Virus record (IMG/VR): IMGVR_UViG_3300021963_000034
Span: 1-64,000 of that record
DNA from: a virus
Reading direction: 5' to 3' (one strand)
DNA length: 64,000 nucleotides
Below are positions 5,273 through 63,800 of this stretch, in pieces. Made by a program: the position numbers and the translations under genes. Under the pieces are notes generated by a model that was not told where the DNA came from, did no database searches, and saw only the letters and a program-made list of their open reading frames with translations. Numbering within the stretch: the first letter of the stretch is position 1; the number at the start of each line of letters is the position of its first letter.

Positions 5273-5409
5273 AACTAGGTGGTGGAGTCAAATGACCCTC
5301 GTTTGGTTTCTTGCTTTTCCATAAAAAAGCAAGTGGTGCGGATGGGACTCTCTCCCGCCTGGTTTCCAATTTCCAGTCAAAGAATTGGTGGCGAGCCTGA
5401 ATACTATAA

Positions 5410-8754: not shown

Positions 8755-9690
8755 ATGAAAAAAATATACCTGGTAAACACTCCAGAGTATCCTAGTGTTG
8801 GTACTAATTATCTTTTTAATTTAAAGTTTATTAATACTTTTTCATATCATGGTCTGGAGTGTAGAGAAATTACAAGTTTTGAAACCTTCAATGAATTAGA
8901 AGATTCTGAAGATCAAATTTTCTTTTTGTGCGATAATTTTTATGATCATCGTAGACCAACTTGGAAAAATGATTTTCAATTTTTGTCTGAAAAGTTTTCT
9001 AAGTCTACCTGGATTTTTTGGTCATTCCAAAATGTACTGAGTGTCCTGTATGCAGGAGATACTTTTCCATTTAAGAAAAGTATTTTTACAGGTGAATATT
9101 ATCGAAAACCTAATATTGATGTTCTAGGACAAAATTTTCAAGATTATATTGATCTTCCTAATTATGTTCCACTTCCTTTTTCTGCAGGCGCTCATCCAGA
9201 TACCCTGGATGATCTCTGGGAAAAGAGAACAGATGTCTACGATTGTGGATTTTGTGGATGTGGATATAAAGTTGATTGGTCTAAAAAATTAAGTGAAAAG
9301 TATAATTGCTTCATTCATTACTATCCACCATTCCTGGACGAAGAAACTAGACTTCAAAAAGTATTTCTAGATTCTAAAATTTGTTTAGGATTTAATTCTG
9401 ATCATGCTGTAGAAAATGGTATGCCAACAGAAAGAGTTTTTGAAGGAGTTGCCTATGGATGCATTGTGTTAACTGATTGTCCCATGGCAGTTGATGCAAC
9501 TGATGGTGCAGCAGTTCTTGTAACAAGTTATACTGACTTAGAAGAAAAAGTTGAGTATTATCTAAACAATGAAGAAGCCCGCTTAGAAAAACAAAAGCAA
9601 GGGAAAATATTTGCAAAATCTAAAGGGACTTACTTTAGTGTAGTTAAAAACTTTTTAGAAACTATTAATAAAATTAATCAAGAACAATGA
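8755..9690 (+). CDS. Glycosyltransferase, GT-B type (CgeB-like)
   Basis: A 311-aa protein starting at ATG 8755, 2 nt after the epimerase stop. The C-terminal half has a nucleotide-sugar-binding pattern: NSDHAVENGMPTERVFEGVA, then GCIVLTDCP and a helical tail (GKIFAKSKGTYFSVVKNFLE). This resembles the C-terminal domain of CgeB/group 1 transferases. The N-terminal part has no clear motif. Probably adds one sugar of the phage-directed glycan in the host cytoplasm. Confidence 0.7.
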   Translation: MKKIYLVNTPEYPSVGTNYLFNLKFINTFSYHGLECREITSFETFNELEDSEDQIFFLCDNFYDHRRPTWKNDFQFLSEKFSKSTWIFWSFQNVLSVLYAGDTFPFKKSIFTGEYYRKPNIDVLGQNFQDYIDLPNYVPLPFSAGAHPDTLDDLWEKRTDVYDCGFCGCGYKVDWSKKLSEKYNCFIHYYPPFLDEETRLQKVFLDSKICLGFNSDHAVENGMPTERVFEGVAYGCIVLTDCPMAVDATDGAAVLVTSYTDLEEKVEYYLNNEEARLEKQKQGKIFAKSKGTYFSVVKNFLETINKINQEQ

Positions 9691-31989: not shown

Positions 31990-32046
31990 GGTAAACAAAT
32001 GTTACGAACCCTAACGGATCTGTAACATTGTCCACTCCCATTAACC

Positions 32047-32107
32047 GAGACCTATGGGGAGTATAAAAACGTCTCTCATACCCACAGTGGAGGGTGCTGT
32101 GGGGTAT
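32047..32107 (+). promoter_or_regulatory. Structured psbA leader
   Basis: The 167-nt leader holds a hairpin ATACCCACAG (32078-32087) / CTGTGGGGTAT (32097-32107) with a purine-rich TGGAGGGTG loop, and an outer GAGAC/GTCTC pair (32047-32051, 32071-32075). The purine loop mimics a ribosome site. A regulatory role is inferred. The true psbA start has no strong Shine-Dalgarno just upstream (A-rich run). Confidence 0.45.
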
Positions 32108-32156
32108 AATTGTATCAGTTCGTCCCCCCGAACTTTTAACTAACTCTCTTAAAAAA

Positions 32157-39689: not shown

Positions 39690-40016
39690 ATGGGAAAGCA
39701 TTATCTACTTAACTTGTATGGATGCTCGTTTGTCCTTTTGGACGACGAGCGTTGTCTTATAGACTTACTAGAAAACGCAGCAGTAGCAAGTGGTGCTACT
39801 GTGGTTCAAACTATCTCAAAAAAGTTTGAACCACAGGGAGTTACTGTTATTTGTTTATTGTCTGAAAGTCATATTAGTATTCATACTTGGCCTGAAGAAG
39901 GTAAGGCAGCAGTGGACGTTTATACCTGTGGTGATTGTAATCCAAAGATTGGGTGTGATATGATTATCGAACAACTCTTTGCACAGAACCATACATTAAG
40001 TTATATTGAACGGTAA
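39690..40016 (+). CDS. speD: S-adenosylmethionine decarboxylase proenzyme
   Basis: 108 aa, the short prokaryotic class. The self-cleavage site is Glu-Ser in LLSESHISIHTWPEEGKA; the new Ser becomes the pyruvoyl group. The Cys in DVYTCGDCNP is also conserved. It makes decarboxylated SAM for spermidine synthesis. It is a common cyanophage auxiliary gene. No other polyamine gene is visible nearby. Confidence 0.95.
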   Translation: MGKHYLLNLYGCSFVLLDDERCLIDLLENAAVASGATVVQTISKKFEPQGVTVICLLSESHISIHTWPEEGKAAVDVYTCGDCNPKIGCDMIIEQLFAQNHTLSYIER

Positions 40017-40034
40017 CAAAAGTTACAAAAGTAC

Positions 40035-40064
40035 TTGTATAGATAATGTAACTAGAGGTATAAT
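40035..40064 (+). promoter_or_regulatory. Sigma70-type promoter
   Basis: TTGTAT (40035-40040), 18-nt spacer, TATAAT (40059-40064), 21 nt before the 40085 gene. Confidence 0.65.
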
Positions 40065-40084
40065 AATCCTCTACCGTTCATCCT

Positions 40085-40288
40085 ATGACTAAAGCACTCT
40101 TGCTTTTAGCATGGGTTCCTTTCCTCTTTGTTTCAGCGCCACAAGCATCTAGCATCCAACAGGTTGCAGTTTCTTGTGACACCGCGATGGAACTAATGGA
40201 CATCGTTAAAAACGGCGATGTAGTATCACAAAAGACAGAGGACCGATTGTTATTAGAACTCCGAAAGGATTTTATAGTAAAGTGCTAA
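40085..40288 (+). CDS. Exported small protein
   Basis: 67 aa with a signal peptide (LLLLAWVPFLFVSAPQASS). The mature part has two Cys, at about residues 31 and 67 (VAVSCDTAMELMDIVKNGD), that could form a disulfide. Its own promoter. Function unknown. Confidence 0.6.
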   Translation: MTKALLLLAWVPFLFVSAPQASSIQQVAVSCDTAMELMDIVKNGDVVSQKTEDRLLLELRKDFIVKC

Positions 40289-40290
40289 AA

Positions 40291-40380
40291 CCTAATAGGA
40301 CGGAAGTAAGCCGACGCGGAACGGATCGTTCATTCGCTATTCGCAAATAGCGAACGCAAACGCCGACTGAAGGAACGCTC
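40291..40380 (+). ncRNA. Candidate glutamine-type riboswitch (Downstream-peptide / glnA RNA-like)
   Basis: A 120-nt GC-rich gap holds signature blocks of the cyanobacterial glnA/Downstream-peptide RNAs: GGACGGAAGTAAG (40298-40310), CGTTC (40327-40331) and CTGAAGGAACG (40367-40377), with CGTTC/GAACG able to form the closing helix and a perfect hairpin TTCGCTATT-CGCA-AATAGCGAA inside it (40333-40354). GGAAGTAAG here lies 5' of CGTTC, not inside the helix as in known examples, and GCCGAC..GGAACG occurs twice (40310-40323, 40362-40377). So the element is permuted, duplicated or degenerate. It lies directly before a YRG-motif peptide gene, as expected for the Downstream-peptide class. Confidence 0.5.
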
Positions 40381-40408
40381 TTTAACCTAAAAAACTAAGG
40401 AGAACCCA

Positions 40409-40546
40409 ATGTCTAGAGTAGTATATCGTGGTGTTGAGTATGACACCCAAAAGCGTCTTGAGTATCAACAACAAATGATGCAGCAACCCCAACAATACAA
40501 CGAAACCTATCGTGGTGTTAAGTTTGTAAAGGAGGGGCATAAATGA
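40409..40546 (+). CDS. YRG-motif small protein (DUF4278-like)
   Basis: 45 aa from ATG 40409 (AAGGAG 6-11 nt upstream) to TGA 40544-40546. Two copies of a YRGV motif: VVYRGVEYDTQ and ETYRGVKFV, separated by a Gln-rich linker. The YRGxxY motif is that of short cyanobacterial DUF4278 peptides that lie behind glutamine-responsive RNAs. It may act in nitrogen-status signalling; the role is unknown even in the host. Confidence 0.6.
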   Translation: MSRVVYRGVEYDTQKRLEYQQQMMQQPQQYNETYRGVKFVKEGHK

Positions 40547-40641
40547 AGAAACTAAACTTCCTTCAACTCATTAAAGAGCAAAAACAAAAAGAAGAGAGGC
40601 GTCAAAAAGCATCTCTTGCTACTTTAGTAGCAGCAAAATAA
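40543..40641 (+). CDS. 32-aa basic peptide
   Basis: ATG 40543 (ATGA overlap) to TAA 40639-40641. KKLNFLQLIKEQKQKEERRQ: a charged helix. Co-transcribed with the YRG peptide and closed by a terminator. Function unknown. Confidence 0.5.
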   Translation: MKKLNFLQLIKEQKQKEERRQKASLATLVAAK

Positions 40642-40644
40642 TTT

Positions 40645-40683
40645 AGAGAGGGACTTGACTCCCTCTCTTTTTTTATGTATAAT
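40645..40683 (+). promoter_or_regulatory. Composite terminator-promoter
   Basis: Hairpin AGAGAGGG (40645-40652) / CCCTCTCT (40661-40668), loop ACTTGACT, then T-run. TTGACT (40655-40660) in the loop, 17-nt spacer, TATAAT (40678-40683). It ends the peptide operon and starts the thyX operon. The clearest of the set. Confidence 0.85.
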
Positions 40684-40706
40684 TACCTTTGTCGAGGTTA
40701 ATAAAC

Positions 40707-63518: not shown

Positions 63519-63800
63519 GCGAGTATGGTGGAATCGGTAGACACACCAGACTTATGAAAATTGAGCCTCATTTAGGAAACTTTATGAGTGTAATTCCTCA
63601 AATTCGGTGAAACCTGTAAAATGGCAATACCGAGCCAAGCATCGCAAGATGAAGGTGTAGAGACTAGACGGGGAACACCTAAACCAAAAGGTATGGTGAA
63701 GGTATAGTCCAGACCACAAACCGAAAGGGTAGTGAAAACTATAGTGGTACGAAAATCTGTTGGGCGTATGCCCGTGGGAGTTCAAGTCTCCCTACTCGCA
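63519..63800 (+). tRNA. tRNA-Leu(UAA) interrupted by a group I intron
   Basis: Exon 1 is 63519-63553 and exon 2 is 63752-63800. GCGAGTA (63519-63525) pairs with TACTCGC (63793-63799); discriminator A. Joined exons give the anticodon loop CTTAAAA (anticodon TAA), the long Leu variable arm TTGGGCGTATGCCCGT and the T arm GGGAGTTCAAGTCTCCC. The intron splits the anticodon after its first U, the classic cyanobacterial and chloroplast position. The mature tRNA is 84 nt. The anticodon stem has one mismatch at its base (C-T). Confidence 0.93.
63554..63751 (+). ncRNA. Group I intron (IC3-like) in tRNA-Leu(UAA)
   Basis: 198 nt, ends in G; the upstream exon ends in T, as group I splicing requires. Conserved core elements occur in order: P (AATTCGGTGAAACCT, 63601-63615), Q (AATACCGAGCCAAGC, 63626-63640), R (GTGTAGAGACTAGACGG, 63655-63671) and S (GGTATAGTCC, 63701-63710). 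The ATTGAGCC near its start also matches the Anabaena tRNA-Leu intron as I remember it. No endonuclease is inside. Probably acquired with the tRNA from a cyanobacterial host. Confidence 0.9.

Follow-up and report, generated by a model that had tools for sequence, protein, structure and literature searches.

A candidate composite glutamine-I-type riboswitch of cyanophages, with a permuted core nested in a canonical aptamer and small genes in its stems

For the glutamine-I (glnA) riboswitch passages reporting the crystal work place the ligand at C1:G59, G2:C58 and G22, with the 23-60 pair forming on binding (PMC5393176, PMC6698751). The Downstream-peptide class is described in a passage of PMC6698751 as a pseudoknot, and glutamine-II RNAs, which in marine picocyanobacteria precede genes for short proteins of the DUF4278 type, appear in the passages concerned as ON switches that are probably translational, an ON polarity also being given there for cyanobacterial glutamine riboswitches (PMC6698751, PMC6316151). 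In phages a glnA riboswitch has been annotated in S-CREM1 (PMC9964418) and in the methylophage Melnitz (PMC9004378), where the passages concerned call it glnA RNA only, and tandem glnA RNAs are mentioned in excerpts from the literature. Within these passages on phage and tandem glnA RNAs and on DUF4278 no nested or permuted aptamer and no internal gene is described, and an earlier notice in the primary papers on the class is conceivable.

The locus considered here lies in the first 64,000 nucleotides (the window) of the IMG/VR virus record IMGVR_UViG_3300021963_000034, which has 153,555 bases and holds one such element. A first-pass annotation had pointed to positions 40291-40546 as a glutamine-responsive leader of the glnA or Downstream-peptide kind, possibly a permuted variant, placed before a peptide with two YRG motifs. 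The sequence blocks on which this rested are where it had put them (GGACGGAAGTAAG at 40298-40310, CGTTC at 40327-40331 and CTGAAGGAACG at 40367-40377), as are the duplications of GCCGAC (40310-40315 and 40362-40367) and of GGAACG, which also occurs twice, and the 45-residue peptide follows at 40409-40546. The block resemblance is not due to chance, as a glutamine-I model match (below) and matches of the leader in 100 phage records, nearly all of them cyanophages (best E 4e-38), attest. The phage setting holds too. The coordinates took in a real 3' part of the RNA and missed its 5' half, CGTTCATCCTAT at 40075-40086, some 220 nt upstream, as well as a 67-codon gene (40085-40288) between the two. 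With no more than the 3' portion of a nested element in view, the block order looked unusual. A simple permutation confined to the shorter span is thereby rejected. As to class, the Infernal search that had been proposed, run with cmscan, found RF01739 (glutamine-I) at 40325-40381 with 33.1 bits (E 2.9e-5), just below the gathering threshold of 35, and found no RF01704 (Downstream-peptide) match up to E 10 within 40000-40700, so the glutamine-I half of the assignment stands. Relatives score 35-41 bits with RF01739, and in one of them (L018, 41 bits) the model aligns along the entire composite. The parts of the element and of its surroundings are collected in the table.

Table. Features of the composite RNA and its flanks (window coordinates; all on the + strand)
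Feature	Position	Details	Basis
Sigma70-type promoter (putative)	40035..40064	TTGTAT 40035-40040, 18 nt, TATAAT 40059-40064; start expected just before P1	sequence
Whole composite glutamine-I-type aptamer (predicted)	40075..40378		covariation, 224 distinct elements listed; RNAalifold; pair counts
Outer P1, 5' strand	40075..40079	CGUUC; partner 40373-40377	pairing in relatives
P2a, 5' arm	40081..40086	UCCUAU, holds A and U of the embedded AUG; partner 40295-40300	helix against shuffles
Embedded gene	40085..40288	67 codons, within P2a; predicted to form a helical hairpin; N-terminus hydrophobic, two Cys invariant	pN/pS, alignment, AF2
P2a, 3' arm	40295..40300	AUAGGA	helix against shuffles
Outer ligand core (predicted)	40300..40303	ACGG; G22 = 40302, position 23 = G40303	numbering of PMC5393176, PMC6698751
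Loop E, 5' strand	40305..40308	AGUA; partner GAA 40369-40371	invariant in 34 ORF-less elements listed
Shared P3, 5' strand	40309..40316	AGCCGACG; partner CGCCGACU 40361-40368	last-pair covariation
Inner P1 hairpin	40319..40331	GAACG-GAU-CGUUC	213 GAACG/CGUUC and 11 CAACG/CGUUG among 224 listed
P2b	40333..40354	plain 9-bp hairpin in the window	sequence; P2b covariation
Inner ligand core (predicted)	40354..40357	ACGC; position 23' = C40357, partner G40324 (position 60')	covariation
3' strands of P3 and of loop E (GAA)	40361..40371		pair table; ORF-less alignment
Outer P1, 3' strand	40373..40377	GAACG	pairing in relatives
Candidate platform	40378..40402	CUCUUUA 40378-40384 facing RBS UAAGGAG 40396-40402	folds; function inferred
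Downstream gene	40409..40546	45-aa peptide with two YRG, DUF4278-like	profile search
Third ORF	40544..40642	32 aa (MKKLNFLQLIKEQ...), overlaps YRG stop codon	sequence
Intrinsic terminator-like stem, strong	40645..40674	AGAGAGGGA/UCCCUCUCU and U run	sequence

Relatives were gathered from eight annotated cyanophage loci and from pattern scans of IMG/VR, giving at least 224 distinct parsed elements; the loci are related and their counts are not independent events. The window RNA is identical to one of them (L310), whose row stands for the window among the 224. Because the retrieval patterns fix some bases, evidence was taken from free positions only, that is P2, the X-Y pair of P3, the 23-60 pair and the fifth pair of P1, and P1 itself was tested with the scan anchors placed outside it so that it was left free. 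Each listed element has two modules, A1 and A2, set 3-6 nt apart in all but one, and among the 224 the spacing of the P2 arms is strictly bimodal, at 15-52 or 145-239 nt with none between. Either a hairpin or a gene occupies each P2: hairpin in A1 and gene in A2 in 123, genes in both in 49, hairpins in both in 34 and gene in A1 with hairpin in A2, the class of the window, in 18. A gene of 50-75 codons thus sits within one P2 stem or within both in 190 of the 224. We read the whole as probably a composite glutamine-I riboswitch, in which a canonical outer aptamer carries in its P3 a circularly permuted inner core, in these viruses of marine and freshwater cyanobacteria, glutamine, the main nitrogen signal of the cell, being the presumed ligand; that the two parts are nested in this way is, as a matter of structural architecture, very likely. 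The permuted variant suspected at first thus survives as the inner module, 40319-40357, and not as a single permuted aptamer, the outer part being canonical and P3 shared.

Genes within the P2 stems begin with an AUG placed in the 5' arm of P2; measured from where P1 starts, its distance is 9-12 nt for 237 of 239 genes among the matches listed. The stop is often a core triplet: UAG in the P2a 3' arm, UAA in the AGUAAG of loop E, or CGAC-URA of P3 and loop E, the last used by 166 of 171 P2b genes among the matches listed. The arms pair across the genes, the continuous P2a helix averaging 5.5 bp against 3.78 in 1000 between-locus shuffles (maximum 4.43) and the P2b helix, which in most relatives listed encloses a second gene, 5.88 against 4.35, above the maximum of 1000 shuffles; among the matches listed, pairs 4 and 5 of P2b are formed in 98.8% and 89.5% against 64% and 56%. 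The embedded proteins are clearly under purifying selection, with pN/pS of 0.236 (the P2a genes, whose wrong frames give 1.5-1.6) and 0.316, against 0.82-2.04 over all wrong frames. Two cysteines are invariant in each alignment, and AlphaFold2 models the proteins as a two-helix hairpin (pLDDT 78 and 71, the latter, more exactly 70.6, for the P2a gene). Most belong to PHROGs 504, 6471 and 13397, whose function annotation is none, and a fold search of the P2b protein against the PDB returned nothing better than E 5. The 67-residue protein of the window itself gave no Pfam match above cut-off, no PHROG, no phage homologue by tblastn and no solved relative. In Syn9 the composite is present with gp196 and gp197, and the YRG gene is gp198.

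An embedded ORF so placed might control the YRG gene purely in cis, by serving as leader peptide or ribosome-occupancy sensor, with a product of no importance. The overlap of both start and stop codons with the aptamer suits that idea, as does the point that P1 and loop E would lie beneath a ribosome terminating at CGAC-UGA; we nevertheless hold it unlikely, given that pN/pS is 0.24-0.32 along the frame with the cysteine pair kept in every alignment, that the gene family at the P2b site is matched in 309 phage records by tblastn, and that both modules exist in ORF-less form, so that the ORF is not needed for switching. Under the preferred reading, that of a nested riboswitch enclosing genes for proteins that matter, the start codon would be controlled by P2, and here some caution is needed. 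Of 195 arm pairs among the matches listed, only 62 have the AUG wholly within the continuous helix and 96 have part of it there, so its occlusion may be weak, and closure of a P2a with a loop of about 200 nt could be slow.

Riboswitch ligand changes are known, and a glutamine-I-like fold whose ligand had changed could be imagined here, in that some core positions differ and most phages listed have C23-G60 and not G23-C60. We think this improbable, because C1:G59, G2:C58 and G22, which are the contacts named in the passage of PMC6698751, are unchanged at the outer site, because the window retains G23-C60 (G40303-C40378), and because the genes downstream are DUF4278-like, as the excerpt of PMC6316151 has it for glutamine riboswitches. 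In the inner module the strand order is P1 3', loop, P1 5', P2, core, which is that of a circularly permuted aptamer and is borne out by double changes in the inner P1 and by the 23'-60' pair; loop E is absent from it, and so this module may be structural and not a second binding site. Three relatives (L153, minus strand near 2398; L185, minus strand near 9170; L263, plus strand near 2009) carry additional nucleotides around the loop of the inner P1, in the last of them with an added stem, ACCUACUUAUAGGU.

The same blocks can be read as two independent tandem glutamine aptamers, each with its own P1 and the first carrying an ORF. P1, P2 and core blocks are indeed present in both halves, a passage of Weinberg et al. 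has been cited in favour, and P1 pairs either way in 213 of the 224 listed. What decides is the remainder. Where A1 ends and A2 begins, CAACG/CGUUG replaces GAACG/CGUUC in 11 of the 224 with the outer P1 still self-complementary, and where A1 begins and A2 ends CGUUU/AAACG stands in 2, so that the outer P1 comprises 222 CGUUC/GAACG and 2 CGUUU/AAACG with zero mismatches. Nested pairing of P1 thus holds in all 224 listed, and tandem pairing would leave both helices broken in the 11 variant loci. A similar outcome is seen for position 60, where the outer pair (A1 23 with the base after the A2 GAACG) is C-G in 184, G-C in 39 and C-A in 1, and the inner pair (A2 23 with the base after the A1 GAACG) is C-G in 221, G-C in 2 and C-A in 1, the tandem reading leaving 37-38 of the 224 unpaired at each. 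Loop E has its AGUA strand in A1 only and its GAA strand in A2 only, so that neither half holds both, and the last pair of P3, which joins the two halves, shows covariation: where P3 is long, the X of A1 GCCGAC-X and the Y of A2 Y-GCCGAC are U-A in 70, G-C in 16 and A-U in 14 of the matches listed, without exception, all being paired where shuffling gives 56%. In S-SRM01 the first P3 pair has gone from A-U to C-G, and the P3 of the window has two mismatches, A-C and C-A. For the 34 ORF-less elements listed RNAalifold recovers the nested fold unprompted, with 867 of 867 cells paired and none of 500 shuffles reaching the observed covariation score, against 96.2% of cells for the tandem fold, which breaks 23-60 in 13 of the 34, twice. 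In an RNAfold comparison of six ORF-less elements, which serves for illustration, the holo form did not come out as the minimum-energy state. A longer P1 than 5 bp was considered and rejected, the flanking bases having no consistent pairing.

Together the split loop E, the covariation of P1, P3 and 23-60, the RNAalifold fold and the pair counts argue for one canonical aptamer whose P3 carries a permuted second core. The covariance support that had been asked for is therefore present among the 224 listed, where it fits the nested topology and contradicts the tandem one, and two tandem aptamers are a very improbable explanation. Least probable of all is that the genes are passengers which invaded and inactivated the aptamer, regulation being lost where an ORF sits: insertions at two equivalent P2 loops do resemble repeated invasion, but the listed elements with an ORF still pair P1, P3, 23-60 and lower P2, and the P2 arms covary across the ORF. 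The nested composite is also carried by all of 12 further phage loci, 11 found through the embedded protein and not the RNA, with S-SRM01 as the other; Syn9 is among the twelve.

Upstream, 153 of 220 loci among the matches listed have a TATAAT-like box (at least 5 of 6 matching) whose last base is 7-10 nt ahead of P1, and so the RNA probably starts at P1. Downstream, an ORF with YRG follows in 210 of 211 and one with two YRG in 205 of 211 of the matches listed. The window peptide scores 18.2 bits (E 0.0032) with DUF4278 (PF14105), below the curated cut-off of 25.3, and 13 of 14 aligned relative peptides match at E<=0.1 (best 2.9e-7). The 3' strand of loop E is GAA in 171 and AAA in 53 of the 224 listed, and in the aptamer strand CURAAG it faces a CUUYAG that overlaps the ribosome-binding site, complementary at all 6 of 6 positions in 144 of 207 listed. 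Opposite the variable A there is U in 51 of 51 and in no case C, and opposite G there is C in 61, U in 57 and A in 37 of the matches listed (Fisher 4e-13), so the GAA/AAA change follows its ribosome-binding-site partner; the idea that it merely tracks UGA or UAA stop usage was rejected, AAA also occurring without the P2b gene (9 of 52 listed). Such alternative pairing fits a translational ON switch, with the polarity given in the passages of PMC6698751 and PMC6316151, and control of the YRG peptide in this manner is likely for the marine clades. The clade of the window, with C at position 60, does not have the E-loop pairing to the Shine-Dalgarno sequence; there CUCUUUA faces UAAGGAG in 37 of 37 of the matches listed, and as its first C is position 60 this hairpin excludes the 23-60 pair. 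It is compatible with most of P1, and the polarity in this clade is thus ambiguous. A sequence similar to the third ORF of the window (MNTLNLIRKQI...) is fused before YRG in many short-P3 marine phages, which suggests that genes were fused or split here and that the two are functionally linked. With the terminator-like hairpin, 40073-40675 forms a self-contained unit of about 600 nt; its neighbours are speD on one side and, on the other, a small ORF that lies upstream of thyX.

How the composite might work can be sketched as follows. Transcription would begin at P1, and the outer aptamer (P1, P2a, loop E, P3 and 23-60) would run through P3 into the inner core (P1 hairpin, P2b and 23-60), the P2a loop in the window being the 67-codon gene, part of whose start codon belongs to the P2a 5' arm. 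When glutamine is low, the helices P1, P2a and P3 would be open and the embedded two-cysteine protein translatable, with passing ribosomes also holding the aptamer apart. When it is high, both cores would fold about the shared P3 and P2a would shut over the start codon; for most relatives, CURAAG of loop E would also be drawn off the overlap with the ribosome-binding site, turning the YRG peptide on. A single RNA would so pick between two small proteins by the nitrogen status of the host. What the comparison shows is the nesting, ligand-core positions conserved in the outer and the inner module, P2 genes under purifying selection, the gene behind them and the alternative pairing. We infer the glutamine ligand, the occupancy of two sites, the reciprocal control and the polarity in the clade of the window, and for reciprocal control of the embedded gene we regard the case as evenly poised. 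The fullest version, in which two glutamine sites are set head-to-head through one shared helix, start and stop codons are sensor nucleotides, binding and translation of the inner gene exclude one another, and many T4-like cyanophages use the whole as a reciprocal two-protein switch that tracks the nitrogen state of the host, is tentative and falls a little short of that balance.

Riboswitch aptamers are normally viewed as compact leaders that do not code for protein. In the composite the bases that sense the metabolite appear to double as start codon, as stop codon and as the codons of the C-terminus, and such overlap would be found in hundreds of cyanophage genomes, including the widely used isolates Syn9, P-SSM2 and P-SSM4, with a version without genes in S-PM2. 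If true, this would account for the location of the hypothetical genes T4-GC 429/430 and Syn9 gp196/gp197, would furnish phage infection with a direct glutamine read-out, and would provide a natural two-core, shared-helix aptamer for cooperativity studies. Since covariance searches will miss aptamers split by ORFs, more may be hidden. The composite looks like a phage element: when 84,980 genomes of bacteria and archaea were scanned, its pattern occurred in 23 contigs, one of them a Prochlorococcus single-cell contig of 189,106 bases, as many as one IMG/VR virus, and the contigs besides this and others from marine assemblies look like chance matches of the gapped pattern. Other RNAs lie in the window, namely a wcaG RNA (5302-5402) and a PhotoRC-II RNA (32023-32117), both above the Rfam threshold, and a group I intron match of 62.9 bits (63544-63733). 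A manA RNA is found near the composite in two relatives (L004, 1019-1204; L024, 2033-2229) and upstream of it in P-SSM4.

Among known systems the closest is glutamine-I (RF01739; PDB 5DDP/5DDO), with which the composite shares a P1 with C1:G59 and G2:C58, P2, G22, 23-60, the AGUA/GAA loop E and P3; in the elements listed the outer P1 is paired in 224 of 224 and 23-60 in 223 of 224, and loop E is in the outer module. It departs from that class in having no compact three-way junction with terminal P2 and P3 hairpins, P3 leading instead into a second permuted core and the P2 loops enclosing genes, in a 23-60 pair that is usually C-G, and in scores that fall short of the Rfam threshold or barely attain it, that of the window being below gathering. 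The glnA element annotated in S-CREM1 is the same composite without ORFs. Glutamine-II (RF01704) has a similar setting, with a DUF4278-type gene behind, but is pseudoknotted, and the composite has no RF01704 match. Group I introns are self-splicing mobile elements that carry ORFs, including endonuclease genes, in peripheral loops, and have in common with the composite a structured RNA with a gene in a stem loop; the composite is instead a predicted metabolite sensor, and the start and stop codons of its genes are part of its helices. Tandem glycine-type riboswitches likewise place two aptamers in one leader, whereas in the composite the second aptamer is nested and permuted and one helix is shared between the two.
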